From Siphonodentalium dalli (lineage: Eukaryota; Mollusca; Scaphopoda; Gadilida; Siphonodentaliidae), in assembly GCA_032622095.1 (NCBI GenBank), contig CP136066.1, positions 200,406,978-200,470,977 on the forward strand: a DNA stretch of 64,000 nt, in the 5' to 3' direction. The notes under the pieces were generated by a model. It worked only from the letters and a program-made list of their open reading frames with translations. It made no database searches and was not told the origin of the DNA. Both the position numbers and the translations under genes were made by a program. How positions within the stretch are numbered: the first letter of the stretch is position 1; the number at the start of each line of letters is the position of its first letter. Of the stretch, positions 12,862-62,647 are shown one piece after another.

Positions 12862-12936
12862 CCCTGTGCCAATGCATTCTCTTATATATGCGAGTCGACC
12901 ATAGGTCGCCTCGCATATATAAGAGAATGCTTTGGC
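12862..12936. repeat. family A hairpin
   Basis: Near-perfect palindrome: CCAATGCATTCTCTTATATA pairs with its complement, with loop ATA between CGACC and GGTCG. About 16 copies occur in the window. Here one stem base differs (GCTTTGG). Confidence 0.9.
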
Positions 12937-13014
12937 TTAACACATTAAAAATTATAAAATTGTTAAAAAATGTAAGAAAATATTGTAAAAAGTGTTTAAA
13001 AAAGATTTTGTTTA

Positions 13015-13090
13015 GGCCAATGCATTCTCTTATATATGCGAGGCGACCTATGGTCGGCTCGCATATATAAGAGAATGCATTGGCACAGGG
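13015..13090. repeat. family A hairpin, inverted partner
   Basis: Reverse-oriented copy of the 12862-12936 hairpin, ending GGCACAGGG. Confidence 0.9.
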
Positions 13091-13264
13091 CATAACCGTA
13101 ACCATCACAATGTGGTCAATGAGCCGGTTCCAATGATATCCATATTTGTATGGTTTTATTGAGACAGACCCAAGATAATTTAGGCTGTTGCAGCTTTATT
13201 TGGCCGTTTTTGTCCGTTTTTGGCCGGTTTGTTGGGAAAAGGGTTCAACTCAATGGTTGGCTTG

Positions 13265-13440
13265 TCCTCTTCTTTCATAAGTAGCGATCACACCACGTAT
13301 GTCCACCGTGAATGTACCAATGTCGTGTTTTATAGTTTTATGGTGCCCATATTCAGAATGAGCAATGGGTGATGCCACAGTGTCCTGTTTTATGGTGCCC
13401 ATATTCAGAATGAGCAATGAGTGATGCCACAGTGTCCTGG
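13265..13440. repeat. short direct repeats, about 53 bp
   Basis: The block TGGTGCCCATATTCAGAATG repeats at 13341 and 13394. The first part (ATCACACCACGTATG) recurs at 13874. Confidence 0.75.
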
Positions 13441-13460
13441 GCCCAAAAACAAGGTACCCT

Positions 13461-13935
13461 GCCTTGCTCGCCGGAAGCTTATATTATGCTAATGATGAAC
13501 AGACAGTCTGCCGTAGGAGCAGTTTTAGCCTCGGTACAACACCACATAATGCGCACGAGTGTAGACTATAAACGATATCTGATCCTACTGATGATAACAT
13601 AGGTTTTGATATGCGATCTTTATCTGTTTTTAGTGATTTCATATGAAGGGTAATAAACTCTATAAAGAATGTCCCTTTACTTAAATAACGGCGATTTGTG
13701 TGAGAAATTACAACTCCACAATAGATCAACTATTAAAACACTTCTTGGGGGAGGTTTGGGGTACGCTCTTTAAAACACTTCTTCAAATATCTCCGTCATT
13801 TAGTTAATAACAATATTTTCTTATTTTAGGAGGATCACATATTGTTTGATATCTACACCAGTGCGCGTGGCCTGATCACACCACGTATGCCCACCATAAA
13901 TGTACCACCGTCGTGTTTTATAGTGCCACCATGCT
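13461..13935. other. no recognised feature
   Basis: Apart from the partial direct repeat near 13874, nothing is recognised. Confidence 0.35.
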
Positions 13936-13937
13936 AT

Positions 13938-15045
13938 GTTACGTGGTCGTGCTAATTTCTTATGTAATTGGTTGGTCCTGCAAATTTACTATGATGTTTT
14001 GGAGGCGCATGCTGATTTGCCATGTTGGTGTAGGGCAAACCTATTCTGATAAGAAAAAGTACCGTTATTTTTATTTGCATTTTCGCTATATTTGGCTAAG
14101 TTGAATGAATTTAGGAAAAGCCATATGTGTATAAATCATTCAACAATATGCATATAGTTAGATCATACCATGGATCTCTATACTGGCTAACGCCCGTAGA
14201 GATCAAATTCGACCAGTAAAACCTGGGAAGTTTTAGTGTTAAAGTTAAAAAAACAATGCAGGGAATATATTGTTTTGTTAATACGTGTTCCCCAATAATC
14301 TACTTCACATTAAGGGGTGGTCCCAGCTCAAGATTACATTCTTTTCTGTGACTTTTGTAATCCGATATCGCAATAAACATTGAATTAATTACCCAGGATA
14401 AATTCCATAATTGCAAGCGACGCAAGAGAAATCGCCCGCAATGTCACTTAAATCGTACAATTTCGAGTTGGGACCTTCACCTACAGCGACGAACATTATT
14501 GAAGAACAGGTAAAAACTAAGAAATATATTCCCCGCGATATTTTTTCAACTTTATAACGTTCTCTGTCAAAACTTAAAAAAGTTCCCAGGTTTTGTACTG
14601 TTGGAATATGATATCTACGGGCGTTAGCGAGAGTGGTGATTCATGGCATGATCTATCATATAGTAAAATGTTATCATAATGGTTGTGTTTGTTGTTGCAA
14701 ACCGATCACAATTTAGATGATTATACATGTCGATTTACAATCACCAGCGCAACCATTATTAAATTATGTTAAAATATATATGTTATTGACTGTTTCATGC
14801 CGGCACTGGCTTTTTTCAAAATCGCTCGGATTAGTCAAACATCCAGAAAATGACAACTTCAAAAAACTAATGGTACTTTTACTTAACAGCATCAGTTTGC
14901 CCTACCAACATCATAGCAATTCAGCAGGACTGCCAGCAGCATAGCATACTAGCAGTGCCCATCAACAAGATAGCAATTCAGCAGTTCCCATCAACATCAT
15001 ATTATAGCACATGCGCGGGACTACTTAACCAGGGGTGGGTCAAAC
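13938..15045. mobile_element. family L foldback element, copy 1, interrupted
   Basis: The left arm (ACGTGGTCGTGCTAATTTCT) and the right arm near 14995-15040 (ATAGCACATGCGCGGGACTA) match the inverted arms of the copy at 37806-38150. A Mutator-like element (14159-14655) is nested inside. Confidence 0.6.
14159..14655. mobile_element. Mutator-like foldback MITE, copy 2
   Basis: 497 bp. Ends TAGATCATACCATGGATCTC and GGCATGATCTA. Flanks GCATATAGT (14150-14158) and TCATATAGT (14656-14664) match at 8 of 9 positions. Nested inside a family L element. Confidence 0.87.
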
Positions 15046-15695
15046 TCTGATCAGATAGTACTGATATAATGCTATATAGTGTTGGTAAAAGTTGTTCCTG
15101 TTGGTTTAGCTATATGCTATTGGAAAAAGTGTGTTTAAAGTGGTAATGTACGCCATTTTCAATAAATTAACGATCTAATATCGATAATATATAGAAAAAT
15201 AAGTAATTTGAGTCGAAGATGTATTCTGTGAACGATCAGGTTAATATGTTATCTTAAAATCAAAGTTAATAATTTGATATAAATTTAATTTATGGCTGGA
15301 GCGATAAATTAAAGTACGAATGTTCGTGTACCAGACGCGATCAAATTAATTAAAGGACAGTGGATTGGTGAACGCACGGCACACATGATCGTGCAAAACA
15401 GTATGTTGATACGGGGAGTAAACTCAAGACACTAACAGACTAGACTAGTGACTATACAGTAACTTAAATGAGTATGTGGGGCTATTATGCATATAATATA
15501 ACTTTTATTTTATACATTTGCTTGAAAACTGTACAAAAATTATTCGAAAACGAAAATTTGTATTTTCGCATTCCGACTAATTTGCTATCTGTAACATTAC
15601 TTCGTACTCAACAGACTTTCAAATAATGGACAAATGGTTACCTTATTCTACGACCCAGAGACTATAGAAATCAACAACAACATTTGAGTACAGTA
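15046..15695. other. no recognised feature
   Basis: AT-rich with no supported structure. Confidence 0.4.
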
Positions 15696-15701
15696 TCCCT
15701 T

Positions 15702-16168
15702 TAAAGATGCATAATCCGATTAATAAGCGCCCCTTAGTTACTATTTATTTGGTTTCGGTGGTACTACATATTTGGTTTGAGTCGAGGAACCAACCTATCA
15801 AAGCTCAGAGTTATTAGATATTGATTTTTTAAATCTATTATTTTTGACCATCGAGACTTAATAGTGGCCCAGTAAAAAGTCGACGATCCGACGCTATATG
15901 ACCAAATTGCGGATGAAGATGGATAACTCTAAAATCAAGAGGCTTTGTGTTGATAATAAGGCCAAATTTCGTCGAACAACATGTTGATGGATAACACGTT
16001 TCGGGCAATTTTATATTATAGTTGACAGCGATTAGCATTATTTTTGGGCAATTAATCGATTCTGATCATTGAAGCAGCATTTCTAATAAAGCAGTTGTTG
16101 TTGTTGTCGACGTCGCTGTTGGAATCTGATTATATGCGGACCATCAAATCGGATTGAGTACCTTTAAC
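15702..16168. mobile_element. family C TTAA element, copy 1
   Basis: Left end TTAAAGATGCATAATCCGAT; right end ATCGGATTGAGTACCTTTAA. Interior landmarks are a block near GAGTCGAGGAACC and a GTTGTTGTTG run near 16094. At least eight full or partial copies occur in the window. No coding capacity. Confidence 0.85.
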
Positions 16169-16329
16169 AAAAGGGGCTAACAATAACAATAAATACTGTC
16201 AATATTCTCCAATTCAGTTCCTTGGTCTTTGGTATAGATAAAACATTTTCAAGGAAAATCCAATATCAGGGAACTATGGTGATGCATTCTCACTCAGTTA
16301 TTGTTGGTATGAATTCAATATATATATAA

Positions 16330-19697: not shown

Positions 19698-19893
19698 TTA
19701 ACCCTTCCATGACTGGAGCTTCCTGATTTTTACGAAAACCCTGTGCCAATGCATTATTGTATATATATGCGAATTTCCCATAGTGAGCCTCGCATATATA
19801 AGAGAATGCTATGGTCTAACAATATTTACATTGACCTCATTATCCATGATAGTTAATGCTGCACCAGCGCAGCTCCCGTCATTGAAGGGTTAA
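19698..19893. mobile_element. TTAA-bounded MITE (type E2) with one family A hairpin
   Basis: Left end TTAACCCTTCCATGACTGGA; right end TCATTGAAGGGTTAA. The terminal TTAA is intact on both sides. The single degenerate hairpin lies at 19738-19816. These termini differ from type E1 although the hairpin is shared. Confidence 0.8.
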
Positions 19894-20242: not shown

Positions 20243-20488
20243 TAGGGAGTCACGCATATATAATAGAATACAATGGCCTAACAATATTTACCTTGACCTT
20301 GTAGGTCATTATATTCTCTAATATATGCGAGAATACATTGGTCAAACAATATTGCCTTGATCTTGTAATCCAGAGTATTATCTTATATGTGAGATGCTCC
20401 CTATGGGAGAGTAGCATATATAAAAGAATAAACTGACACAGGATCATTAAAACTGCACCAGCGCAGCTCCCGACATGAAAGGGTTAAT
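20243..20488. mobile_element. degenerate E2-like element with family A hairpin pieces
   Basis: The right end GCTCCCGACATGAAAGGGTT is type E2. Hairpin fragments lie at 20250-20277, 20306-20340 and 20380-20430. No matching left TTAA end was found. Confidence 0.55.
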
Positions 20489-20695
20489 ATCATCTTGAAC
20501 CTTGATGTCGACCCGGGTTTCATATGAATAGGTAAGATATTGTAACAACAAGCTCGCGCGACGTTACTGTCTAGCAATAGGTCAGCTTGGTCACATGGTT
20601 TTCCGACGGTGTCCGATCAAATTATCCGTATCTAAATAGACAACTAACTGATCTTGCTTAAACATTTGTCGGTTTGGGTTGAACATATTCTGTGC

Positions 20696-20845
20696 AATCC
20701 TTGAAATAGGATGCCTGTCATTTGCAGAATGAGGTTCCCAAAGGGTCAATTTGGTGATGCTAGCCCGCTATGCGGGGTAGCATCACTAAATTATCCATCT
20801 GGGGACCTCATTCTGCAAATGACAGACACACTATTTCAAGGCTTG
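20696..20845. mobile_element. family G foldback MITE, copy 1
   Basis: 150-bp palindrome from CCTTGAAATAGGATGCCTGT to its complement. Flanks ATTCTGTGC (20687-20695) and ATTCTGTGT (20846-20854) match at 8 of 9 positions, fitting a Mutator-like 9-bp duplication. Copies at 24421 and 55290. Confidence 0.85.
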
Positions 20846-21021
20846 ATTCTGTGTCCATATTGCTCTTAGGTGGATGAGAACACAATCGTGTTTAGAAGAA
20901 CAGACGAACAAGAGCGACAGTATGGGGTTTAAAACCTGATGCAAAACTTGGAGGACATGGAAAGTCATCTTATAAAAGAGTTATTGTTTTGTTTTACTTA
21001 GATGTTGACATGAGCAATAGG

Positions 21022-21316
21022 TTAAACCTTTCTATATTAAAGCATCATACGTGAGTATAGTTATCCCATGGGAAATGTTCAGATAATAAGTTCAACAATC
21101 CATTGGTCTCTCGTATATCTCCGTAGGTCCCATAGGTCCCATAGGTCGTTTGTTGAACTTATTATCTGAACATTTCCCATCAATGAATAATTGTGAATCC
21201 TTCTGCTCTTCTGTCTGCCATCTGCTTTTATCACTTGAACATCTCTCCAAATAAATAATAGACCTTTCCAATATATACTTTTATGAGTGAATGGGATAAT
21301 CCATTTATAGAAAAGG
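21022..21316. mobile_element. family H element, copy 3
   Basis: Starts TTAAACCTTTCTATATTAAA and ends ATTTATAGAAAAGG. The inner inverted repeat GATAATAAGTTCAACAA / TTGTTGAACTTATTATC is at 21092-21162. TTAA is present on the left only. Confidence 0.65.
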
Positions 21317-21383
21317 TATGTGATATTCGGGTTGATAATTCCTCATATCATCCCGAATCAATACAATAAGTCAACATATCCTC

Positions 21384-24361: not shown

Positions 24362-24420
24362 CTGAAATTCAACATAAGCTTTTCGTTTAACATATATAAA
24401 CATTAAGCATGAGTATACAC

Positions 24421-24649
24421 AAGCCTTGAAATAGGGTGTCTGTCGTTTTCAGAATGGGGCCACCAGTGGGTGAATTTAGTGATGCTATCCCGCATAGCGG
24501 GCTAGCATCACCAAATTCACCCTCTGGGAACCTCATTCTGCTGATGTGTAAGCAGAAGGAGGTCCCCAGAGGGTGTGCAGGCTAGCATCACCAAATTCAC
24601 CCTCTGGGGACCTCATTCTGCAAATGACAGACACCCTATTTCAAGGCTT
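24421..24649. mobile_element. family G foldback MITE, copy 2, with 10-bp TSD
   Basis: 229 bp. Ends AAGCCTTGAAATAGGGTGTC and its complement, flanked by a perfect GAGTATACAC repeat (24411-24420 and 24650-24659). A one-sided internal duplication sits near the middle. Located in an intron of the sushi gene. Confidence 0.92.
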
Positions 24650-24689
24650 GAGTATACACTGTGACCTGTCAATCTATTTTATATTAGGA

Positions 24690-25222: not shown

Positions 25223-25617
25223 TTAACACTTTCAGTGCCAGGGGCCGATCTCATCGGCCCTAATTTACGGTCTGTAAAATCAGCGAATTTAATAACAAAC
25301 TGGATAAAACCTTAGGGGCATGTTATAACTCAAAACTATCAACACGTATTCATAGTAATAATTTTGATGCCCATGAAAAACTTAAGATTCCCTGGCACTA
25401 AACCTACAAAATAAGTCTGTTAAAGAATATAAGAAAAGATTATTAAAATTGTAAAAAATTGTAAAAAATAATAACAAATGATGAAAAATTGTTAGGCCAA
25501 TGAATTATCTTATATATATGCGAGTCGAACTATGGTCGACTCGCATATATAAGAGAATGCATTGGCACAGGGTATATGGGTTGATACAATAATCGGACCT
25601 GGCACTGAAAGGGTTAA
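25223..25617. mobile_element. TTAA-bounded MITE (type E3) nested in family B
   Basis: Left end TTAACACTTTCAGTGCCAGG; right end CCTGGCACTGAAAGGGTTAA. Perfect TTAA on both sides. One family A hairpin at 25495-25572. The termini differ from types E1, E2 and E4. Confidence 0.88.
25495..25572. repeat. family A hairpin
   Basis: Ends GGCACAGGG. The stem carries GAATTATC instead of GCATTCTC on one side. Confidence 0.85.
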
Positions 25618-26463: not shown

Positions 26464-26532
26464 CTGGAGATACATTCAAATACATATGTGACCCGCCATA
26501 TCAAATCCAGTCGTAATTCGGGATTTTTTTTA

Positions 26533-26608
26533 CCCTGTGCCAATGCATTCTCTTATATATGCGAGTCGACCATAGGTCGCCTCGCATATATAAGAGAATG
26601 CATTGGCC
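26533..26608. repeat. family A hairpin
   Basis: Perfect-stem copy beginning CCCTGTGCCAATGCATTCTC. Confidence 0.92.
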
Positions 26609-26823
26609 TAACAATTTTTATCATGTTTTTAAAATAAATGTTTCTTACAATTTTTAGGATGTAAAATAAAAAACATCCATTACCCTGCAGGGAGCCCCAC
26701 ACATATATAGAAGCATATAGAAGAGTGTCGTCTGCTCATGTTTGTCTGGGGCTCTGTATGGGTGAAATTATAAAATTGTTAAAGAATACAAGAACAAATT
26801 ATTAAAATTGTAAAAAATTGTTA

Positions 26824-26899
26824 GGCCAATGCATTCTCTTATATATGCGAGGCGACCTATGGTCGACTCGCATATATAAGAGAATGCATTGGCACAGGG
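26824..26899. repeat. family A hairpin, inverted partner
   Basis: Opposite orientation to 26533-26608, ending GGCACAGGG. Confidence 0.92.
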
Positions 26900-26947
26900 T
26901 AAAAAAAATCCCGACTTACGACTGGATTTGATATGGCGGGTCACATC

Positions 26948-27740: not shown

Positions 27741-27745
27741 GAACT

Positions 27746-28172
27746 TAAAGGTACTCAACCCGATAAAACTCCTCTCAATTACTATTTCAATGGCTTCGGG
27801 GGTCAAAAATATTTTATTCGAGTCGAGGAAGTCACCCATCAAAGCTCAGATTTGTTAGATATCGATTTTAGAAATCTATTATTTTTCATTATCGGGAATA
27901 CTATATGGCCCAGAACGTTGTCTGTTTGAATAGATTCGGAGAACACATCCAGAGCAGATTACGGCAGTTAGTAGTACTGATCTCGAGTTTATAACAAATT
28001 TCAAAAATCAATATCTAATAACTCTGAGCTTTGTTTGATGGGTTCCTCGACTCGAATCAAATTTTTTTTACCCCCAAAGCCAAAGAAATAGTAATATAGG
28101 ACCCTCCGATCGGATTGTTGTTGTTGGAATCTGTTGAGATGGGGACCCTCTTTACGGGTTGAGTACCTTTAA
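27746..28172. mobile_element. family C TTAA element, copy 2
   Basis: Left end TTAAAGGTACTCAACCCGAT; right end GGGTTGAGTACCTTTAA. Long inverted arms through the GAGTCGAGGAA block make this copy a foldback. Confidence 0.85.
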
Positions 28173-28433
28173 CTTGTTCTATAACAGAATGTTTGTCCTA
28201 ATTCATCTAATTCGCAGCACTAACTTTCAGTTTTCTTTGATCTTTGAATTTATTCAACTACTCATTTTCGCTTTTCTCCTTAAAACGTGTCACATGCATT
28301 CGACGTATCCGTTGTCGTATTTAAGGGGAGGTCATGTGACCAATTTTGAATGGGGATTTCCATGCAAATTTCCGGAGCAAATTTTATGTATGAAGTAGTT
28401 GTTCGGAAACTTCGGGAATCACTGCTTTTTTTA

Positions 28434-28508
28434 CCCTGTGCCAATGCATTCTCTTATATATGCGAGTCGACCATAGGTCGCCTCGCATATATAAGAGAAT
28501 GCATTGGC
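28434..28508. repeat. family A hairpin
   Basis: Perfect-stem copy. Its partner is at 28715-28790, with the same CCCGCAGGGAGCCCCACA core between them. Confidence 0.9.
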
Positions 28509-28714
28509 ATAACAATTTTTATCATGTTTTTTAAATAAATGTTTCTCACAATTTTTAGGACGTAAAATAAAAAAACATCCATTACCCGCAGGGAGCCCCA
28601 CAAATATATAGAAGCATATAGAAGAGTGTCGTCTGCTCATGTTTGTCTGGGGCTCTGTGTGGGTGAAATTATAAAATTGTTAAAGAATACAAGAACAAAT
28701 TATTAAAATTATTA

Positions 28715-28790
28715 GGCCAATGCATTCTCTTATATATGCGAGGCGACCTATGGTCGACTCGCATATATAAGAGAATGCATTGGCACAGAG
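28715..28790. repeat. family A hairpin, inverted partner
   Basis: Ends GGCACAGAG, followed by TAAAAAAAATCCCGACTT as in the family R copies. Confidence 0.9.
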
Positions 28791-29225
28791 TAAAAAAAAT
28801 CCCGACTTCAACATTGAACAGTGATAACGTTTTAACTGGCAGGTGCGCTAGGTAAATTATAAATTTTTGCAATAAATACACTTTTGAATTTTTTTTGCTG
28901 GAATTACATCACACGACCTACATTTGAAATATCCATATAAAATTCAAAAATAAATACACCAACACTATAATGGGACATGTTACATGCGGATACCACACCA
29001 AGTCACACACAGACGTATGTGCAACTCTGTAACTTTTCCTCCGCAGATTTGCATGGAAATCCCCATTATAAATTGCATGGTCACTTGACCCCCCCCCCCC
29101 TTAATTTGAACCACAAATGTGTCTATAGTTCGGGAAAGAAATGTAGCTTAGGATAATTGCAAATCAATGGCATCAATTGCTGCAAATTTATAGAAAGGGG
29201 CCAAATTCATACGCTGAGATCAGTT

Positions 29226-29470
29226 ATAACCCTTTCTAAATACAAAGTGGATTATCCCACCGAGTTATAAGAAGATATATTGGAATGGTCTATTATTCAT
29301 TTGGAGGGATATGTTCAGGAAAAATGAGCAGATGACAGAGATACGAAAAGATAATAGAAGTGCAGCAGGATTACTACTAACTGATGGGCAAATGTTCACA
29401 TAATAAGTTCAACAAACGACAGGTGGTCGTTTGTTGAATTTATTATCTGAACATTCCATAATGGATATAC
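29226..29470. mobile_element. family H element, copy 4 (reverse)
   Basis: Contains AACCCTTTCTAAATAC, ATTGGAATGGTCTATTATTC and the inner palindrome AACAAACGAC / GTCGTTTGTT at 29412-29436. Confidence 0.6.
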
Positions 29471-29885
29471 ATAATCGTCATTCGTCAATGAGTAGTTCGT
29501 ATAGAGAGGGCTTAACTAAACAGGTAATCAATGTGAACTTTTGCGATATGAGACATTTTTGGGAATTATTGCGGGTAACGAGTTGGCTCAATATATACCT
29601 GTTGTAATCCGAAACTATGGAATCTTCTTTGTATTCGATAATGGACCTGAAATTAACACATACATTTAAGATATGCACTTACGCGCATGTACAAAGGTAG
29701 TCAAAGTTGATATTGGCAATGTATTTTAATACATCAAATGCCGTCAGCCAATGAAATCGCTTCTATAAAAAAAACTCAATTGACAGTGTATTGTTTGAAA
29801 CATATTACCCACTGCATGTATGTCATATATGTATTGAGATTTGCATATACTCTGCTCTATTTTGTAATGCCATGTCATGAAGAAC
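29471..29885. other. no recognised feature
   Basis: Intronic sequence without supported structure. Confidence 0.35.
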
Positions 29886-30964: not shown

Positions 30965-31016
30965 AAATTACTGGAGCTTCCTGAAGTTTTGCGAAAACCC
31001 TGTGCCAATGAATTAT

Positions 31017-31081
<65 letters not shown>

Positions 31082-31215
31082 GAGTCTCCCATATATGAGA
31101 GAATACATTGGCTTAAAAATATTTACCTTGACCTTGTTAGCCAGTGCATTCTCTTATATATATGAAGCTCCATATGGGCTCGCATATATAAGCGAATTCA
31201 CTGCCACATGATTTG
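30965..31215. mobile_element. degenerate element with two family A hairpins and a (TA)31 expansion
   Basis: CTGGAGCTTCCTGAAGTTTT near the left resembles the interior of type E2. The first hairpin (31002-31111) has its TATATA core expanded to (TA)31 at 31019-31080. The second lies at 31139-31206. Terminal TTAA is not intact. Confidence 0.65.
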
Positions 31216-35345: not shown

Positions 35346-35388
35346 ATTACAAATACGGTGATTTGAGCCGTGTAGCATCGATTATTTA

Positions 35389-35843
35389 AAGGTACCCAAT
35401 CCAATCAGAGGGTCCCTATATCATCAAGATACAACAATAACAACATTTCTTCAAAATACGCTTTAGTTATCAGAATCGATTAATTCCAAAAAATAATGCT
35501 AACCACTGTCAACTATTGTATTCAATTTCCCAAAATGTGTTATTGATCAACAGTTTGTTCAACGACATATGGCCGTCTTATCACTTGAGTATTCACGAAA
35601 TTTTGCCGTATTACTACTTGTTTTAGAGATATCCATCTTCATCCGCAATTTTGACCGAGACCATCCATTTGACGGCGTGTTTCTGGGCCACAAACAATTG
35701 AAATAACAAACTTCAAAAATTGGTATGTGATCACTCTGAGCTTTGACGGGTGGGTTCCTCGACTTGAATCAAATATTGTTTACTTCCGAAGCCAAATAAA
35801 TCGTAATTTAGAAGCGTTAAATCGATTGTGTACCTTTAATAAT
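35389..35843. mobile_element. family C TTAA element, copy 3 (reverse)
   Basis: Left TTAAAGGTACCCAATCCAAT; right ATTGTGTACCTTTAA. The interior blocks occur in reverse order relative to the 15.7-kb copy. Confidence 0.85.
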
Positions 35844-37805: not shown

Positions 37806-38150
37806 GGTCGCGTGGTCCTGCTAATGTGTTATGATGTTGGGAGTCCAGCTGAATTGCTATGATGCTGGTAGGGCAAACTGATGCCGTTACTAAAAAGGAC
37901 CTATTATTTTTTTCTGAAGATGTCATTTTCGCGGTGTTTGGCTAATCCGAGCGATTTGAGAGAAAAAAAAAACCAGCGCATGTATGCAACATTTAAGAAC
38001 ATATATATTAAAAAAAACAAGTAATAATGGTTGCGCTGGTGTTTGCGAAAATGGCAACTTTAGAAACAATAATGGTACTTTTTCATTACAGCATTTATCA
38101 GGACCTACCAGCATCATGGCACATTACCAGGACCACTTGACCAGGGGTGG
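37806..38150. mobile_element. family L foldback element, copy 2
   Basis: Arms CGTGGTCCTGCTAATGTGTT and GGCACATTACCAGGACCACT are inverted copies, with an inner pair ACCAGCGCATG / GGTTGCGCTGGT. It overlaps the left edge of the segmental duplication. Confidence 0.8.
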
Positions 38151-39051
38151 AATTGTGCCGAGTCGTAAGTTAATCAGAAACATATCGAAACAGTTATGTA
38201 GCCTACAACTTATAATAAATAAGATTCAAACAACAAATATGTGTGAATTAATTGAGACATGGTCGATGCATGGCCATTTCGCAGTCTGGACTCCTCGACC
38301 TATATGACCTCTGGGGCCTAGATCTCGGGTGTAATTAGAATTAATTTTTCGCGGAATGATATATCCAGATCTGGAAGAAAAGTATCACCACCGTACAGCC
38401 GACGTCCGCATAAAATGGTCCGATTACTTGTATTGTTATAACTTATTGACGATTTATTCGATCTAATAATTATGTATGCATGGTTCATGATCTTTGATCA
38501 CAAATTATCCTGAAACATGGACCAATCATCCTATTTGAATGCCGTTGGTAGCACCGATTCACGGTTTCTGTTATCGACAACGCCGGCACATCGTCGACGC
38601 ACCATTGTTGAATGTTGTCACCTCGCAACAATAGCGCTATTTGTCGTGTCTGGAACATTCAATTTAGGCCACGCGGTAATTTCATTCATATATATATTTT
38701 ATAGACTATTCTATATCATTGTTGTAAAACAAAACTTAAATAATGCTTAAATAATTAATATTAAATGTAAATGTTTTCGTACCCACGAATCGACGAAATA
38801 CAACTAAATTCAAAAATGCGCGCCTATCCTTGACCCAGTCACCCAGCTCAAAATAACGTGATACAGTTCGAGCCAACCATATGTATGGCGTTGCATTGAA
38901 GCTGAGTCTGAAACGGAACGGAATCTGACATTTGTTCGCGCTCACTGAAGCAAGCGCATTTGAACCAATGAACGCTCATAAACTGAGTCCGTGCCTCCAT
39001 GCATATGATGTATATTGAAGAAAAGGAAGGGCGTTCGAGCGATATGAGATC
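37845..39051. repeat. segmental duplication, block A copy 1
   Basis: Nearly identical to 42940-44141, with a few substitutions and A-run length changes. It ends at ATATGAGATC. Confidence 0.95.
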
Positions 39052-41914: not shown

Positions 41915-42939
41915 ATATGAGATCATGCAATGAATATCCACTATAACGGGCGTCAGCCACATATAGCTGCATGGCAAGGTCTAGAGCGGTATGAGCAATC
42001 CAGTCCATGTGTCACTGAGATTTGTATTGTATATAGTGTCGTATCGTATACTGTGCACCAGACGCAGCTTCTATAAAGACATGTTACACAAAGTCCTCTC
42101 AGTCAATTTATAATTATCAGATAACACAGAAATCATTTATAGCATTTTCCTTTCAATTAAGGCGTTATTTTGTTAATGGAAATATGCATTGGGTCGGAAA
42201 GATGTAGGCTGGAAAGGTGAACGCCATTCACGAATACAATATAATGCACGTAAAATTATGAAATTATTTTGAATATAATTGTAATAAAATGATTGTGTTT
42301 ATTTTCGTTTAAAGGCACGGACGGTGTTCATATTTGTTCAAATCGCCATCAACAGAAGGAATATTAAAAAAAAAATATATTTGTTCACGGCATATGCCAA
42401 ACATAATCAGCGCGTAAATAGTATATTGTCGTCAAGACGTACGATGGTGTACGAAAACAAGAGCCTGCTCGTGTTGCAGAAGTTGTGCTTCTGTTTACAT
42501 AACACAGCGCAATTATATTGGTTAATCACAAACAAACGATATAAACGCTCTTTACATTTTCCATATCAGGAAAACAGTAACAAATAACGCTCTTTATGTT
42601 TACCATATCCGGATATAAACAAAAGCCAGGTAACGTAACGTCGGAGGTGAATATTTTAACAGCATACCCACCGCCAACGCCGCCCGAATCTTTAATTCAT
42701 AGCAAAGTATATATGGTCTAGCAGCGTGAATTTAGTTACTTATTCCTTATTCCTTATTCAAAAAATTTGGGGAAATGTGGCAAATGACCATGGCAACGTC
42801 TTAAGTAGGGCGAGACAAAACTTCCTGTGAATTTTTTTTTTCTAAAACAAGTTCCAAAATGCACGAAATTAGGCAAAGTCCGAAAATGAACGGAAATTGG
42901 CCGAAACAAGTGCGGTGCCATAAATGGCCACCTCGGCCA
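41915..42939. repeat. segmental duplication, block B copy 1
   Basis: Matches 44132-45156. It includes a family D element and the first 221 bp of the giant foldback element, then breaks off into block A copy 2. Confidence 0.95.
42312..42697. mobile_element. family D TTAA element, copy 2
   Basis: Left TTTAAAGGCACGGACGGTGT; right CCGCCCGAATCTTTAA. Shares GTTCAAATCGCCATCAAC with the window-edge copy. Confidence 0.8.
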
Positions 42940-44141
42940 CCAGCTGAATTGCTATGATGCTGGTAGGGCAAACTGATGCCGTTACTAAAAAGGACCTATT
43001 ATTTTTTTCTGAAGATGTCATTTTCGCGGTGTTTGGCTAATCCGAGCGATTTGAGAAAAAAACCAGCGCATGTATGCAACATTTAAGAACATATATATTA
43101 AAAAAAACAAGTAATAATGGTTGCGCTGGTGTTTGCGAAAATGGCAACTTTAGAAACAATAATGGTACTTTTTCATAACAGCATTTATCAGGACCTACCA
43201 GCATCATGGCACATTACCAGGACCACTTGACCAGGGGTGGAATTGTGCCGAGTCGTAAGTTAATCAGAAACATATCGAAACAGTTATGTAGCCTACAACT
43301 TATAATAAATAAGATTCAAACAACAAATATGTGTGAATTAATTGAGACATGGTCGATGCATGGCCATTTCGCAGTCTGGACTCCTCGACCTATATGACCT
43401 CTGGTGCCTAGATCTCGGGTGTAATTAGAATTAATTTTTCGAGGAATGATATATCCAGATCTGGAAGAAATGTATCACCACTGTACAGCCGACGTCCGCA
43501 TAAAATAGTCCGATTACTTGTATTGTTATAACTTATTGACGATTTATTCGATCTAATAATTATGTATGCATGGTTCATGATCTTTGATCACAAATTATCC
43601 TGAAACATGGACCAATCATCCTATTTGAATGCCGTTGGTAGCACCGATTCACGGTTTCTGTTATCGACAACGCCGGCACATCGTCGACGCACCATTGTTG
43701 AATGTTGTCACCTCGCAACAATAGCGCTATTTGTCGTGTCTAGAACATTCAATTTAGGCCACGCGGTAATTTCATTCATATATATATTTTATAGACTATT
43801 CTATATCATTGTTGTAAAACAAAACTTAAATAATGCTTAAATAATTAATATTAAATGTAAATGTTTTCGTACCCACGAATCGACGAAATACAACTAAATT
43901 CAAAAATGCGCGCCTATCCTTGACCCAGTCACCCAGCTAAAAATAACGTGATACAGTTCGAGCCAACCATATGTATGGCGTTGCATTGAAGCTGAGTCTG
44001 AAACGGAACGGAATCTGACATTTGTTCGCGCTCACTGAAGCAAGCGCATTTGAACCAATGAACGCTCATAAACTGAGTCCGTGCCTCCATGCATATGATG
44101 TATATTGAAGAAAAGGAAGGGCGTTCGAGCGATATGAGATC
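42940..44141. repeat. segmental duplication, block A copy 2
   Basis: Second copy, joined directly to block B with no 2.86-kb block between them. Confidence 0.95.
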
Positions 44142-45156
44142 ATGCAATGAATATCCACTATAACGGGCGTCAGCCACATATAGCTGCATGGCAAGGTCTA
44201 GAGCGGTATGAGCAATCCAGTCCATGTGTCACTGAGATTTGTATTGTATATAGTGTCGTATCGTATACTGTGCACCAGACGCAGCTTCTATAAAGACATG
44301 TTACACAAAGTCCTCTCAGTCAATTTATAATTATCAGATAACACAGAAATCATTTATAGCATTTTCCTTTCAATTAAGGCGTTATTTTGTTAATGGAAAT
44401 ATGCATTGGGTCGGAAAGATGTAGGCTGGAAAGGTGAACGCCATTCACGAATACAATATAATGCACGTAAAATTATGAAATTATTTTGAATATAATTGTA
44501 ATAAAATGATTGTGTTTATTTTCGTTTAAAGGCACGGACGGTGTTCATATTTGTTCAAATCGCCATCAACAGAAGGAATATTAAAAAAAATATATATTTG
44601 TTCACGGCATATGCCAAACATAATCAGCGCGTAAATAGTATATTGTCGTCAAGACGTACGATGGTGTACGAAAACAAGAGCCTGCTCGTGTTGCAGAAGT
44701 TGTGCTTCTGTTTACATAACACAGCGCAATTATATTGGTTAATCACAAACAAACGATATAAACGCTCTTTACATTTTCCATATCAGGAAAACAGTAACAA
44801 ATAACGCTCTTTATGTTTACCATATCCGGATATAAACAAAAGCCAGGTAACGTAACGTCGGAGGTGAATATTTTAACAGCATACCCACCGCCAACGCCGC
44901 CCGAATCTTTAATTCATAGCAAAGTATATATGGTCTAGCAGCGTGAATTTAGTTACTTATTCCTTATTCCTTATTCAAAAAATTTGGGGAAATGTGGCAA
45001 ATGACCATGGCAACGTCTTAAGTAGGGCGAGACAAAACTTCCTGTGAATTTTTTTTTTCGAAAAAAAATTCAAAAATGCACGAAATTAGGCAAAGTCCGA
45101 AAATGAACGGAAATTGGCCGAAACAAGTGCGGGGCCATAAATGGCCACCTCGGCCA
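44132..45156. repeat. segmental duplication, block B copy 2
   Basis: Near-identical to 41915-42939, then continues into the full giant foldback element. Confidence 0.95.
44527..44914. mobile_element. family D TTAA element, copy 3
   Basis: Duplicate of 42312-42697 inside block B copy 2. Confidence 0.8.
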
Positions 45157-48205: not shown

Positions 48206-49049
48206 CAAAGCTTAGTACCTACATAGGTACTCTGAAGTACCTATATTTTTAAGAGTGAAGAGAACAACAATCTAACATTTTGACACCAAAAAAAGGGCAT
48301 TTTTCAACTCGCCCCGAATATTGTCGGAAACTCAGGGTTTGTTCTATTGTTTATAGTGTTAGTGATTGCCTTGGTATATCGCAACAGCCATTACATGCTA
48401 GCTGAGACGTATATGTTGAGTCTATTTTTCTTGTGATTATTATGTAAGTTTCCCTTCAAAGTCAGGTGAGTTTTCTTTCGAACCACATATATGTTGTTGT
48501 CATGTTGATCCATCACGTTAAGGACTATATATACTAATTTTAGAGTAGGTAGTAGTAGCATGCCTCCTTGACAACACAGGATTATTTACTGCAAAGGTCA
48601 CTTTTTACAGAAATATAAACAGTAAAATACTTAGTTCAAAATAATATAAAATCTACTGGCAGTATTGACAACAAATTCCTCTGTAGAAAACCAAACTGGG
48701 TTAATATAAAATATTTTCACATGAGAACTTGTGTAAACATTATTTAAATTTATCTTATTTGGCCAAAACTTGAGGCACATAATTAATTGTGATAGGTATA
48801 TACAATTTCTTTACACTTTGATAATCCAATAGTTCTCCGGAATTGAGTACATACATTCATTAACATTGAGAAACATATAAATGCTGATGATCGATATGTT
48901 ATATTATTTGTATTCATATGAAAGTGTTATGTTTCCGTTTATACATGCATAGCCGCACCAGAAGCCGATGGCCGGTATATCTTATTTTGAAATAAAAGGA
49001 TCCTTAGTGTACGTTCAGACGACCACGATTCAATCGTAAGTGGCGGAAT

Positions 49050-51063
49050 CGGGCCCGTCGGCCAATTTCCGTTCATTTTCGGACTTTGCCTAATTTCGTG
49101 CCACATTTCCCCCAATTTTCCTGACCGAGCAGAGCGGGAATTTCTATTTGACCCACTTTATGGGACTCGACCCAAAAACTTTTCAGCCCAAAAAGTTCGG
49201 TCCAGGTGGCCATTTTTTAATATGTGACAGTTTGCCACATTTTCCGAAATTTTCCCGACCGAGCAGAGCGAAAACTGGGATTCGACCCACTTTTTCGGAT
49301 TCGACCCAAATTTTGTTCGGCCCAAAATATTTGGCCGAGGTGGCCATTTATGGCACCGCACTTGTTTCGGCCAATTTCCGTTCATTTTCGGACTTTGCCT
49401 AATTTCGTGCATTTTGGAAAAAAAAATTCGAATTTTATTTTTCACAGGAAGTTTTGTCTCGCCCTACTTAAGACGTTGCCATGGTCATTTGCCACATTTC
49501 CACATATTTTCCTGACCGAGCAGAGCGGGAATTTCTATTTGACCCACTTTATGGGACTCGACCCAAAAACTTTTCACCCCAAAAAGTTCGACCCAGGTGG
49601 CCATTTTTTAATATGTGACAGTTTGCCACATTTTCCGAAATTTTCCCGACCGAGCAGAGCGAAAACTGGGATTCGACCCACTTTTTCGGACTCGACCCAA
49701 TTTTGTTTCGGCCCAAATATTTTGGCCGAGGTGGCCATTTATGGCCCCTTACTTGTTTCGGCCAATTTCCGTTCATTTTCGGACTTTGCCTAATTTCGTG
49801 CATTTTGGAACTTTTTTTCGAAAAAAAAAAATTCACAGGAAGTTTTGTCTCGCCCTACTTAAGACGTTGCCATGGTCATTTGCCAAATTTTCCTGACCAA
49901 GCAGAGCGGGAATTTCTATTTGACCCACTTTATGGGACTCGACCCAAAAACTTTTCAGCCCAAAAAGTTCGGTCCAGGTGGCCATTTTTTAATATGTGAC
50001 AGTTTGCCACATTTTCAGAAATTTTCCCGACCGAGCAGAGCGAAAACTGGGATTCGACCCACTTTTTCGGACTCGACCCAATTTTTTTCGGCCCAAATAT
50101 TTTGGCCGAGGTGGCCATTTATGGCCCCGCACTTGTTTCGGCCAATTTCCGTTCATTTTCGGACTTTGCCTAATTTCGTGCATTTTGGAACTTTTTTTCG
50201 AAATATTTTTTTCACAGGAAGTTTTGTCTCGCCCTACTTAAGATGTTGCCATGGTCATTTGCCACATTTCCCCAAATTTTCCTGACCGAGCAGAGCGGGA
50301 ATTTCTATTTGACCCACTTTATGGGACTCGACCCAAAAACTTTTCAGCCCAAAAAGTTCGGCCCAGGTGGCCATTTTTTAATATGTGACAGTTTGCCACA
50401 TTTTCAGAAATTTTCCCGACCGAGCAGAGCGAAAACTGGGATTCGACCCACTTTTTCGGACTCGACCCAATTTTGTTTCGGCCCAAATATTTTGGCTGAG
50501 GTGGCCATTTATGGCCCCGCACTTGTTTCGGCCAATTTCCGTTCATTTTCGGACTTTGCCTAATTTCGTGCATTTTGGAACTTTTTTTCGAAAAAAAAAA
50601 TTCACAGGAAGTTTTGTCTCGCCCTACTTAAGACGTTGTCATGGTCATTTGCCACATTTCCCCAAATTTTCCTGACCGAGCAGAGCGGGAATTTCTATTT
50701 GACCCACTTTATGGGACTCGACCCAAAAACATTTCAGCCCAAAAAGTTCGGCCCAGGTGGCCATTTTTTAATATGTGACAGTTTGCCACATTTTCCGAAA
50801 TTTTCCCGACCGAGCAGAGCGAAAACTGGGATTCGACCCACTTTTTCGGACTCGACCCAAATTTTGTTTCGGCCCAAAATATTTGGCCGAGGTGGCCATT
50901 TATGGCACCGCACTTGTTTCGGCCAATTTCCGTTCATTTTCGGACTTTGCCTAATTTCGTGCATTTTGGAACTTGTTTTCGAAATTATTTTTTTTACAGG
51001 AAGTTTTGTCTCGCCCTACTTAAGACGTTGCCATGGTCATTTGCCACATTTCCCCAATTTTTT
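49050..51063. repeat. 390-bp higher-order satellite, five units
   Basis: GAGCGGGAATTTCTATTTGA recurs at 49132, 49523, 49904, 50293 and 50683 (381-391 bp apart). Each unit contains three related sub-repeats of about 130 bp sharing CCGAGCAGAGCG, GGTGGCCAT and GCCACATTT blocks. Long frames on both strands are by-products of the array. Confidence 0.93.
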
Positions 51064-55289: not shown

Positions 55290-55542
55290 CTAGCCTTGAA
55301 ATAGGGTGTCTGTCATTTGCAGAATGAGGTCCACAGAGGGTGAATTTAGTGATGCTACCCCGCATAGCGGGCTAGCATCACACAATTCACCCTCTGAGAA
55401 CCTCGTTCTGCTTACTCTTCAGCAGAATGAGGTCCCCAGAGGGTGAATTTGGTGATGCTAACCCGCTATGTGGGGTAGCATCACTAAATTCACCCTGTGG
55501 GGACCTCATTCTGCAAATGACAGACACCCTATTTCAAGGGTT
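55290..55542. mobile_element. family G foldback MITE, copy 3, with 9-bp TSD
   Basis: 253 bp, flanked by a perfect GGGTAAAAC (55281-55289 and 55543-55551). Two stacked palindromes share GGTGATGCTA / TAGCATCAC arms. Confidence 0.93.
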
Positions 55543-55551
55543 GGGTAAAAC

Positions 55552-56205: not shown

Positions 56206-56208
56206 ATT

Positions 56209-56465
56209 TATCCATTACCCTGCAGGGAGCCCCACACATATATAGAAGCAAATAGAAGAGTGTCGTCTGCTCATGTTTGTCTGGGGCTCTGTATGGGTGA
56301 AATTATAAAATTGTTAAGGATTATAAGAAAAAATTATTAAAATTGTAAAAAATTGTAAAAAATAATAACAAATGATAACAAATTGTTAGGCCAATGCATT
56401 CTCTTATATATGCGAGGCGACCTATGGTCGACTCGCATATATAAGAGAATGCATTGGCACAGGGT
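56209..56465. mobile_element. truncated hairpin element
   Basis: Starts in the middle at CCATTACCCTGCAGGGAGCC and ends with one family A hairpin (56389-56464). The left hairpin is missing. It lies between two family C ends. Confidence 0.7.
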
Positions 56466-56813
56466 ATTAAAGGTACTCAATCCGATCAGACCCTCCTAAA
56501 TTACTATTTCTTTGGCTTCAGGGGTAAAACATATTTTATTCGAGTCGAGGAACCCACCGATCAAAGCTCAGAGTTATTAGATGTTTGAAATCTGTTAATT
56601 TTCACCACCTGGAATATTTGGCGGCCTGGCAAATATTAGACGAATACCAAACGCCATACGCTCGATACCAAAATGTTGATATATAACACTTAGTGGTCAG
56701 CATTATTTGCTGTCAATTAATCGATTCTGATAACTGAAACGGCATTTCAAGATATTGTGTTGTTGTTGGATCTGATTATATTGGGACCATCGAATCGTGT
56801 TGTGTACCTTTAA
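56466..56813. mobile_element. family C TTAA element, copy 5
   Basis: Left TTAAAGGTACTCAATCCGAT; right TTGTGTACCTTTAA. Shorter interior than the 15.7-kb copy. Confidence 0.85.
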
Positions 56814-57384: not shown

Positions 57385-57645
57385 TACCAATGGCTTAATG
57401 GTGTAAAAATTATTTGAATCGAGTCGAGGAACCCGCCCATCAAAGTTCAGAGTGATCAGATATCGATTTTTCAAATTTTTTATTTCTCGAGATATGTAAT
57501 TGTTTCCGCCTGAAAAAATTCGTAAAGGCGACGGTCACGGACCAAATTGCTGATGAAGATGGATAACTCGCTGCATTTCAAAAAATGTTGGTGTTGGAAT
57601 CTGATGATGTGGGGACCATTGAATCGGATTGAGTATCTTTAAATT
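57385..57645. mobile_element. family C fragment, copy 6
   Basis: Contains AATCGAGTCGAGGAACCCGC and the right end ATCGGATTGAGTATCTTTAA. The left TTAA end is lost. Confidence 0.7.
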
Positions 57646-57654
57646 ATTATATGT

Positions 57655-58175
57655 GATTGTCGATGTTTTTGACGATTCTCAGTGGTTTGTTGTGATTCTC
57701 TGTGTTTTGTGACGATTCTCCGTGGTTTGTGGTGATTCTCGCTGGTTCGTGGTGATTCTCGGTGTTTTGTGTCAATTTTCAATGGTTCCTGGTGATTCTC
57801 GGTGTTTTGTGTCAATTCTCAATGGTTCGTGGTGATTCTCGGTGGTTCGTGGTAATTTTCGGTGTTTTGTGACGATTCTCGGTGGTTCGCAGTGATTCTC
57901 GGTGTTGTTTGGCGATTCTCTGTGGTTCACTGTGATTCTCGGTGGTTCTCGCTGATTCTCGGCGTTTCGGGTGATTCTCGGTGATTTTCGGTGGTGATTC
58001 TCGGTGATTCTCGGTGATTCTCAGTGGTTCGCGGTGATTCTAAGTGGTTCGCGGTGCATGATTCTCAGTGGTTCGCGGTGATTTTCAGTGGTTCGCGGTG
58101 ATTATCAGTGGTTCGTGGTGATTCTCAGTGGTTCATTGTGATTCTCTGTGGTTCATGTTGATTCTTGGTGAGCCC
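57655..58175. repeat. 20-bp minisatellite
   Basis: About 25 variable units of the form GTGGTTCGTGGTGATTCTCG. Strand-asymmetric (G and T rich on the plus strand). Confidence 0.93.
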
Positions 58176-58745
58176 TAGTCAGTCTCAGGGATTGCTGTCC
58201 TGTCGATTCATATTAATCCGCTCCACGCCCACACCACTTCGCCGTGGATCACCGTAAAAACACCACCGTGAATCCCAGTTATCCACAGTGGGCGTATAGT
58301 CGGTGTCCCACCGGTGTTGAGTGTTTTTATTATCGCACACTCTTTACGTTATGTACATATTTCGTATGACTTTTCTAATAAACTTACAGCCTGGTTGATG
58401 CAAGTTTGTTCATCATAATTATCGGTGCGCAGAGAAAGGGCTTACCGCGTCAGATGGTTAACCACAACATAAACAATTTACTTCAATTTAATACTAGAAT
58501 TCAACTCACCCATCGTGTGTGTTGATTTCTTAATCTGGCGTGCGAATAACTCCGAAATAACGATGCGAAATAACGAGTAGCCAATTAATCCGATTTGTGT
58601 GACAATATAGGTACTTTATTATCAACTAGTAAACTGGTTGATACCAATTCGGTCCTCGTATCCGGGAACATGTCGTCTCATTGTGGGGCTGAAACTGCTT
58701 ACCACTACATATCGTAGGCAATACATAAATACCGGATTTAATCGA
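58176..58745. other. no recognised feature
   Basis: No supported exon or repeat family. Confidence 0.35.
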
Positions 58746-59575: not shown

Positions 59576-59576
59576 A

Positions 59577-60139: not shown

Positions 60140-60497
60140 TTAACCCTTTACCCAACAAACCGGCCAAAATCGGCCAAATAAAGCTTCAACAGCTTCGGTC
60201 TGTCTCAATAGAACCATACAAATATGGATATCATTGGAACCGGCTCCTTGACCACATTGTGATAGTTACAGTTATGCCCTGTGCCAATGCATTCTCTTAT
60301 ATATACGAGTCGACCATAGGTCGCCTCGCATATATAAGAGAATGCATTGGCATTTGTTCTTACAGTCTTTAACAATTTTATAATATTTAATGTGTTAAGC
60401 CAATGCATTCTCTTATATATGCGAGGCGACCTATGGTCGACTCGCATATATAAGAGAATGCATTGGCACATGGCCCTTCTGTTGGGTAAAGGGTTAA
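60140..60497. mobile_element. TTAA-bounded MITE (type E1), copy 2, with two family A hairpins
   Basis: Left TTAACCCTTTACCCAACAAA; right TTGGGTAAAGGGTTAA. Both TTAA are intact and the terminal repeat is about 18 bp. Hairpins at 60277-60351 and 60399-60473. This is the cleanest E1 copy. Confidence 0.92.
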
Positions 60498-60609
60498 TAT
60501 ATAGAGTTATGGTATTGAATTATAGTAATTCGAGTTTGTAAGCTGGGTACGATATGATTTATTAGTCGTAGTTGTATTTGTTCTGGTCCCAGAAAATGTT
60601 GTCAAATTG

Positions 60610-60943: not shown

Positions 60944-61041
60944 CAAGATGACGGGGGAATATATACATGATGAGGTTGCATCAATTGTGTGTAAAGAGTG
61001 TGTGATAGCCCGGTTTCATATTTGTATATTTCGAGCGTTCT

Positions 61042-61181
61042 GTCGGTCATATCTCTCTATCTATCTATCTACTTATCTCCCTCTCTCTATCTCTCTCGCA
61101 ATCTCTATCTCTTACCCCCTCCCTCTCCCCCTCTCTCTATCTCTCTCGCAATCTCTATCTCTTACCCCCCCCCCCCCTCTC

Positions 61182-61246
<65 letters not shown>

Positions 61247-61261
61247 CTCTCTCCTCTCTCT

Positions 61262-61300
<39 letters not shown>

Positions 61301-61329
61301 CTCTCTCCTCTCTCCTCTCTCCTCTCTCT

Positions 61330-61371
<42 letters not shown>
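61042..61371. repeat. (CT)n low-complexity tract, about 330 bp
   Basis: Nearly pure pyrimidine on the plus strand, with short C runs. It gives artefactual Ser/Leu or Arg/Glu frames. Confidence 0.95.
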
Positions 61372-61373
<2 letters not shown>

Positions 61374-61562
61374 GCATTTATTTACTCAATATTGTCTTTT
61401 TCTGCATTCTGCATAAGACTCGGTGGCCGGATATGATGTGAACTAACTATACGTGAGAAGTAAACACTCATTAGTTTCACCTGCATGTGCATGGCGATGC
61501 TACCGAAATGTGTCTGTAAATACCATTCAATTAGCTCACAAGAATCAATCATGGAGGTACTT

Positions 61563-61675
61563 GAAGGCAAATTCATGGCTCAAATTCATTCATTGGTTGC
61601 ATACATACTGTTGAGTATAATATGAGATGATCCCATAAATTGCTGGATTTAGTGTGCAGTACCGTTTTTAAGATT
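61563..61675. mobile_element. family B fragment, right half
   Basis: CATGGCTCAAATTCATTCAT to GTGTGCAGTACCGTTTTTAA matches the right arm of the 32.4-kb copy. Confidence 0.75.
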
Positions 61676-61734
61676 TCCTACTAAAATAAACGATTCCTTC
61701 TGCACTTGTATTAATGTATTATCTATCGTCTGCT

Positions 61735-61800
61735 TACATTTCCTGAAAACCCCTCCTGATAAATAATAGACCATTCCGACGTATATAGAAAGTGTATATT
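61735..61800. mobile_element. family H fragment
   Basis: Contains CCCTCCTGATAAATAATAGA and ACCATTCCGACGTATAT. Confidence 0.5.
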
Positions 61801-62216
61801 GCTTGCTGCCAAGTCATCATATCGGACCGTGAACCAGTTGACTATAATTGTGTTGCTGAAAGTGTTTATCACGACACATATTAAGGGCGTGCGCCAATGC
61901 ATTATCTCTTTCTTTACTAAATGGATCACCCCATCAGTTATACGTTGGAGTGGTCAATTTTTCAACAGGATGGATGTTCAGGAAATATAATCAGACGACA
62001 GGCAGAGGAACATATTATGAATGTGTAGATGCTGTATAATAATTTGCGATGTAGATCATAGACCTATAGCAGATCGTATATTGTCGCGCTGCATTGAAAC
62101 AACTAAACAGTTGCAGTGTGTGGCTAATATAACATCAAATGTGTCTCAGTTGTGTGACTACACATAAGTATATCACTAACAGTGTCGAAAATATTTTATT
62201 TGAATATATGTGACCC

Positions 62217-62647
62217 GCCATATCAAATCCAGTCGTAAGTCGGGATTGTTTTACCATGTGCCAATGCATTCTCTTATATATGCGAGTCGACCATAGGTCG
62301 CCTCGCATATATAAGAGAATGCATTGGCCTAACAATTGTTTACAATTTTAATAATTTTTTCTTGTATTCTTTAACAATTTTATAATTTCACCCATACAGA
62401 GCCCCAGACAAACATGAGCAGACGACACTCTTCTATATGCTTCTATATATGTGTGGGGCTCCCTGCAGGGTAATGGATGTTTTTTATTGTATGTCCTAAA
62501 AATTGTAAGAAACATTTATTTAAAAAAAAAGATAAAATATTGTTAGGCCAATGCATTCCATCGGTCGCCTCGCATATATAAGAGAATGCATTGGCACAGG
62601 GTACAAAATCCCGTCTTACGACTGGATTTGATATGGCGGGTCACATA
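62217..62647. mobile_element. family R MITE with family A hairpins, copy 2, TA-flanked
   Basis: Ends TATGTGACCCGCCATATCAA and its complement, with TA at 62215-62216 and 62648-62649. One full hairpin (62253-62328) and one missing part of an arm (62545-62602). The core is inverted relative to the 26.5-kb copy. Confidence 0.88.

Follow-up and report, generated by a model that had tools for sequence, protein, structure and literature searches.

Miniature inverted-repeat transposable elements (MITEs) nested in other MITEs are a known parallel to the element described here, a double-palindrome cassette found in a 64,000-base stretch of the genome of the scaphopod mollusc Siphonodentalium dalli (GenBank assembly GCA_032622095.1, contig CP136066.1, positions 200,406,978 to 200,470,977 of the forward strand). 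This stretch is called the window below, and it is the basis of all statements made here. Nested MITEs and the cassette are alike in being short and multi-copy, in having inverted ends, and in lying in hosts with TTAA duplications, but there are also differences: in the window one cassette occurs in several host families, a 69-bp palindrome forms each of its two ends, and no target duplication of its own is seen.

Palindromes have also been described in better known transposons. For piggyBac, and likewise for piggyBat, binding of subterminal palindromes by the transposase is reported to involve paired C-terminal domains; the piggyBac palindrome is 19 bp long, one piggyBat palindrome lies at bp 107-120, and the piggyBat subterminal sequences are inhibitory, according to the excerpted text of the source (PMC11707139). 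Similarities with the present case are TTAA duplications, found here in the host families named H1, H2, H3, and H5, and palindromes tens of bases inside the tip, but compared with the short palindromes of that excerpt (PMC11707139) those described here are 69 bp long, are paired, and occur also in a family without TTAA (H4). Mitochondrial palindromic GC clusters and double-hairpin elements, which are small palindromic repeats, single or double, are reported to behave like transposable elements, and GC clusters to merge and shuffle (excerpts of PMC4478555 and PMC2800124). As characterized in those excerpts, however, these elements are organellar and the GC clusters are GC-rich with AG or ACT flanks, whereas the hairpins of the window are AT-rich at their cores and are hosted by DNA transposons. 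Finally, MADE1, which is linked to hsa-mir-548, is a near-perfect palindromic MITE with two 37-bp arms that is able to form an RNA hairpin, as would be the case here; in the excerpted account (PMC1784062) the palindrome is the entire element, whereas in the window two hairpins bound a cassette that lies within another element and is known from DNA alone.

The window has a eukaryotic look, is rich in repeats, and has a GC content of 37.9%. The unit that recurs in it is a palindrome of 69 bp with 33-bp arms, a 3-nt loop (ATA or TAT), and one constant mismatch; the consensus arm of 33 bases is GCCAATGCATTCTCTTATATATGCGAG[T/G]CGACC, followed by ATA or TAT and then by the second arm. Twelve young hairpins were recognized by an ungapped scan combined with a comparison of flanks for the edges. 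Ten of them are intact (12868-12936, 13016-13084, 26539-26607, 26825-26893, 28440-28508, 28716-28784, 56390-56458, 60283-60351, 60399-60467, and 62260-62328), one is imperfect (25496-25566), and one is truncated, its inner arm being largely deleted (62547-62595). About six further hairpins are decayed: one at 19745-19815, three in a row at 20245-20437, the first with a single recognizable arm, and two at 31004-31205. A scan for tight long hairpins (arm score at least 18, loop at most 12, simple repeats left out) returned 18 in the window, 10 of which belong to this family, versus 0, 0, and 0 in three first-order Markov controls. The repeated near-perfect hairpin of a preliminary description of this DNA is therefore real, as is the inverted pairing noted there, which is seen at five loci with ATA in the left loop and TAT in the right. 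Its estimate of about 16 copies becomes about 18 when young and decayed hairpins are both counted. The 3-nt loop that it gave is correct, but its length of 75 bp takes in part of the CCCTGTG tails, and its stem of 31 bp was slightly short. The same description had pointed to a motif, TATATAAG, in both directions, and this motif indeed occurs 33 times on the two strands of the window compared with about 6.7 times expected from base composition, with 23 of the 33 lying inside young hairpins.

Hairpins of this family are found at ten loci, of which five are paired (A, K26, K28, K60, and K62), two are half cassettes (K25 and K56), and three are decayed (K19, K20, and K31). The complete arrangement, of about 200-370 bp, is CCCTGTG, a 69-bp palindrome, an AT-rich spacer, a second 69-bp palindrome, and CACAGGG, so that terminal inverted repeats (CCCTGTGCC...GGCACAGGG) enclose inverted hairpins. 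Cassette A (12862..13090) has hairpins at 12868-12936 and 13016-13084, cassette K60 (60277..60473) at 60283-60351 and 60399-60467, cassette K26 (26533..26899) at 26539-26607 and 26825-26893, and cassette K28 (28434..28790) at 28440-28508 and 28716-28784, the last with a short piece of H4 outer sequence at its right; cassette K62 (62254..62601) combines the hairpin at 62260-62328 with the truncated one at 62547-62595. The half cassettes consist of spacer, one hairpin, and CACAGGG, in K25 (25418..25572) with the imperfect hairpin at 25496-25566 and in K56 (56206..56464) with the hairpin at 56390-56458, and both look like truncated cassettes. Spacers are about 96% identical between K26 and both K62 and K28, 94% identical over 80 bases between K25 and K56, and 82% identical over 55 bases between A and K26. 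A single hairpin as the mobile unit was rejected because the five full young loci have the outer edge in common as well as a pair of hairpins and related spacers; hairpin number varies, as K20 has three hairpins and K19 has one. It may be added that the spacer at 26675-26765 and its equivalents in K28, K62, and K56 contain CCCTGCAGGGAGCCCCAC...GTCTGGGGCTCTGTATGGG, which may have arisen by a minor insertion or be what is left of a cassette end that collapsed (TACCCTG/CAGGG).

The mismatch between the arms is oriented. The arm beside CCCTGTG carries T in nine of the ten intact hairpins and C in the remaining one, the right hairpin of A, and G is found on the inner arm of all ten; the imperfect K25 hairpin has T in both arms, and in the truncated K62 hairpin the G-type arm is on the outside. 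The only differences among the ten intact hairpins are three private changes, which means that no hairpin lineage tracks host family, and equally no variant is held in common from which a tree could be built. The preliminary description had proposed to compare hairpin phylogeny with host family: hairpins do not follow their hosts, but no phylogeny in the proper sense can be drawn.

All ten loci lie inside or abut another repeat, and the CCCTGTG/CACAGGG edge, with single-base variants, meets different flanks in H1, H2, H3, H4/H5, and K56. H1 surrounds A at 12838..13248, where it runs from TTAACCCTTTACC, the start of this family, to AAAGGGTTCAA, and it surrounds K60 at 60140..60497 in inverted orientation, with tips CCCTTTACCCAACA. 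H2 surrounds K25 (25223..25617), begins with TTAA followed by C(A/C)CTTTCAGTGCCAGG, and was seen once, as was H5 around K28 (28321..29104), which has TTAA and GGGGAGGTCATGTGACC tips, starts with TTAAGGGGAGGTCATGTGACC, and has end repeats of 61 bp that are 82% identical. H3, whose copies start with TTAACCCTTCCATGAC or similar, holds the decayed cassettes. Its copy around K19 (19698..19893; TTAACCCTTCCATGACTGGAGC...) contains one hairpin; in that around K20 (20245..20487) the right end alone was recognized and the middle one of the three hairpins is centre-less; in that around K31 (30967..31211) part of the left side was recognized, and a hairpin with a TA expansion is followed by spacer and a second hairpin. 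H4 surrounds K26 (26486..26946; outer repeat ATGTGACCCGCCATATCAAATCCAGTCGTAA...) and, inverted, K62 (62206..62648); its outer repeat (ATGTGACCCGCCATATC...) measures about 46 bp and is unrelated to the ends of the other hosts, and no TTAA was found at its ends. K56 is flanked on the left by a tip resembling that of a further family, H6 (56188), and on the right by a complete H6 copy (56467-56813). H6 itself is a frequent TTAA MITE of the window with AGGTACTCAATCCGAT-like ends; its copies include those at 56467-56813, 27745-28172, and 35386-35839, and these three are without any listed hairpin.

A TTAA target duplication is present at both ends of the K60 copy of H1, of H2, of the K19 copy of H3, and of H5. 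One end of the K20 copy has TTAA; the A copy of H1 has TTAA at one end and, at the right, TTCAA, which is apparently a mutated TTAA; none was recognized in the K31 copy. H1, H2, and H3 share a TTAA-C(C/A)CTT tip (CCCTTTACCCAACA, C(A/C)CTTTCAGTGCCAGG, and CCCTTCCATGAC, respectively), and CCCTT-like tips are typical of the piggyBac superfamily. Judged by duplication and tips, these three families are piggyBac-like MITEs. A scan for TTAA elements gave 10 rows at 13/16 or better, two of which overlap in K19, versus 0 or 1 in 20 Markov controls, and it misses the A copy of H1 as well as H5; other words applied to the real sequence gave 5 (AATT), 49 (TATA), 23 (ATAT), and 0 (TTTA, ATTA, and TAAT), the TATA and ATAT counts being supposed to come from TA runs. 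The cassette lies inside several copies each of H1, H3, and H4, its position being identical in the two H1 copies and equivalent in the two H4 copies. Among the matches listed in a BLAST comparison of host flanks with the window (E up to 0.001), all seven recognized copies of these three families contain the cassette, and no cassette-free copy of any of them was found.

These features lead us to a tentative interpretation, to which we give slightly less than an even chance: the cassette would be the core of a gene-less DNA transposon, characterized by its double palindrome, that other MITEs, mostly piggyBac-like ones with TTAA, contain in nested form and carry along. A non-autonomous core of this kind would have become embedded in other miniature elements, probably by transposition, and these hosts would then have taken the cassette along as they moved and increased in number. 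Each palindrome would amount to one DNA site present twice in inverted orientation, which gives four sites per cassette, and the site is probably bound by a transposase, the type of which we infer. Such a site would be retained as long as a lineage moves and would decay after the lineage dies. The cassette thus looks like selfish DNA borne by selfish DNA, with no sign in the window of a benefit to the organism.

The pattern of divergence is compatible with this interpretation. Between host families, hairpins are less diverged than the other aligned sites, at 2/138 versus 11/86 for A and K26 (p=0.00063), 2/138 versus 13/93 for A and K28 (p=0.00019), 1/138 versus 7/61 for K60 and K26 (p=0.0012), and 1/138 versus 8/61 for K60 and K28 (p=0.00038); within H1, the counts for A and K60 are 3/138 versus 18/222 (p=0.02). 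They come from an affine-gap pairwise aligner, as MAFFT misaligned the spacer and inflated the contrast (19/86 for A and K26). In the old H3 copies, all nine arms match the young arm at 23 to 27 of 33 sites, which indicates that hairpins are unprotected there. Eight of the nine old arms, the ninth (34 nt) being excluded, retain 86% of the core, 71% of the outer region, and 44% of the loop-adjacent region, and the value for the core is biased because the arms were located through it. Next to the loop, CTCCC replaces the CGACC of young arms in three of the nine old arms, all in K20, while the other six vary; CTCCC is accordingly not supported as a common H3 trait. Taken together, divergence and decay fit a site that is important in moving lineages, or recent homogenization, and do not fit selection on resident copies.

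Several results weigh against the cassette being a nested transposon core, chief among them the missing target duplication. When the edges of six copies were each allowed to shift by up to 4 bases and repeats shorter than 3 were not counted, no duplication beyond chance was found in any of the six: the longest flanking direct repeat is 3 in A, 5 in K60, 0 in K26, 3 in K62, 0 in K28, and 0 in K31, and 176 of 2000 random site pairs reach at least 5. The best 8-mer agreement, 6/8 in A (CAGAACGG/CATAACCG), is equalled or exceeded by 483 of the 2000 random pairs. Applied as a positive control to the three copies of F2, a second double-hairpin family considered below, the same test recovered repeats of 8, 11, and 9 bases, so the hosts and F2 have target duplications and the cassette visibly has none. 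TA on both sides of the cassette in H4 and H5 is uninformative, because an inverted repeat that ends in TA yields it automatically. This absence, which weakens simple nesting slightly and is its main weakness, is the reason that we label the cassette a MITE-like core only. In addition, no empty host site was seen in the window, and no transposase gene was identified there when nine open frames were compared with Pfam. The hairpin contrast also becomes weaker or disappears within groups: it is not significant for K26 and K62 (1/120 versus 13/320, p=0.13), K26 and K28 (0/138 versus 7/243, p=0.052), or K62 and K28 (2/118 versus 13/240, p=0.16), and there is no difference for K25 and K56 (4/69 versus 5/85, p=1). 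For H1 and K62, aligned by MAFFT with the truncated hairpin misaligned, the counts are 27/133 versus 26/86 (p=0.11) and 30/135 versus 19/61 (p=0.21). Across the nine affine-gap comparisons the same copies recur, so the tests are non-independent, and the spacers are AT-rich.

The lack of a duplication is, on the other hand, what would be expected if palindromes are sites of breakage or of stalled replication and if repair templated by a different copy both homogenizes the hairpins and splices the cassette into a new host. This recombination account is a real possibility, albeit an unlikely one. In its favor, hairpins are near-identical across hosts whose spacers differ, the outside G-type arm of K62 and the two T-type arms of K25 are as expected of arm exchange, and a stub of H4 outer sequence occurs in K28, inside H5. 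Hairpin centres have also been deleted in K62, K20, and the F2 copy F2_24; these losses and the K62 and K25 arm types match hairpin-mediated deletion and arm exchange, each as a single case. However, the arm mismatch in all ten intact hairpins (T/G in nine, C/G in one) indicates that arm exchange is rare, the common CCCTGTG edge is sharp, as is more usual for the end of an element, and the old H3 hairpins escaped homogenization. The same persistent mismatch led us to disfavor self-correction of the palindrome as the cause of its high identity. A related proposal, in which the two hairpins together form a mobile module that passes between transposon families of different types without target duplication, through recombination provoked by its palindromes, and supplies them with common recognition sites, we consider doubtful. 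In the preliminary description it was a single hairpin that moved or recombined between elements; the sharing stands, but what is shared is the pair with its spacer and not a lone hairpin.

That description also held that the termini of the hosts are unrelated and that the hairpins are not explained by simple descent of one MITE. The former applies to H4 and H5 and is overstated for H1, H2, and H3 in view of their common tip. This tip, together with the presence of the cassette in all seven recognized H1, H3, and H4 copies among the matches listed, is what could be expected if one ancestral hairpin-bearing TTAA MITE had outer ends that turned over rapidly. Yet the ends of transposable elements are normally their most conserved part, whereas here the tips of H1, H2, and H3 diverge past the first 10 or so bases, H5 begins with TTAA-GGGG, H4 has no TTAA, and the distance from cassette to nearest TTAA varies (20 bases in H1, 41 in H2, 37 in H3, and 109 in H5). 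We therefore regard simple descent as improbable, and the earlier doubt about it was sound to the extent that a cassette common to the TTAA hosts H1, H2, H3, and H5 and to the unrelated H4 repeat is hard to derive in this way. Selection by the organism, with the hairpin as a source of small RNA or, through TATATAAG in both arms, as a bidirectional promoter, is very improbable. Both K26 hairpins have a predicted folding energy as RNA of -54.3 kcal/mol versus shuffled means of -13.6 and -14.3, MADE1, an 80-bp palindromic MITE, is given as the ancestor of hsa-mir-548 in the excerpted source (PMC1784062), and TATATAAG is enriched as described above. That enrichment is mostly a product of the repeated hairpin, however, and hairpins have decayed in old host copies, the arm mismatch stays unrepaired, and Rfam gave 0 matches to known RNA families at gathering score over the whole window; for selection on a small RNA, which had been suggested earlier, we find no positive evidence.

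The cassette is accompanied by other hairpin families. F2, unrelated to it, has ends close to CAAGCCTTGAAATAGGGTGTCTGTC and ATA/TAT loops, and its copies (20695-20845, 24420-24650, and 55290-55543) all have perfect 8-bp target duplications (ATTCTGTG, AGTATACA, and GGTAAAAC), which alone suggest a hAT-like element. One copy has a single hairpin and two are double, one of these being centre-less. As F2 has target duplications of its own, at least one proper MITE has paired hairpins as an integral part. A third hairpin-bearing family, F4 (12497-12735, 21015-21330, and 29225-29520), has TTAACCCTTTCTA-like ends, with exact TTAA at both ends in the first copy only; its central hairpin is a different one, based on AATAAGTTCAACAA. 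The presence of F2 and F4 beside the cassette indicates that hairpins are a common component of the local MITEs.

Repeats of at least 300 bases with 100% (rounded) identity lie a few kb apart (41915-42214 with 44132-44431, and 37966-38265 with 43056-43355) and reflect either recent duplication or an assembly effect. At 49036-51054 a unit of about 390 bases with partly open frames is present five times in tandem; a 122-bp tandem repeat occurs at 8878-9494 and a minisatellite with steps of 10 or 20 bases at 57626-58211. The longest stop-to-stop frame has 237 codons and is of low complexity; the nine open frames had no Pfam match at cut-off, and ARAGORN in its bacterial setting found no tRNA in the window. 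In exact-pattern scans, the hairpin core had 0 matches among viral contigs and 0 among genome contigs, and the H4 end (18 bases) had 0 among viral contigs and 8 in bacterial records, approximately the number estimated by chance; a 19-mer of F2 matched two viral contigs, with similarity to F2 limited to 19-20 bases. In a literature search whose scope lay outside subscription journals and repeat databases, six strings from the hairpin, H4, and F2 were absent, and no title among the matches listed described the paired-hairpin arrangement.

Overall, the window offers a compact example, open to testing, of how gene-less transposons evolve by modules: one core occurs in several hosts, and a second, unrelated family with the same design lies alongside. 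If the arrangement is ordinary nesting, its value would mainly be that of good annotation. If, however, the hairpin pair is a module, it would represent DNA transposons exchanging cis parts as modules, and such exchange between families would bear on how MITEs gain vehicles and how unstable palindromes persist.

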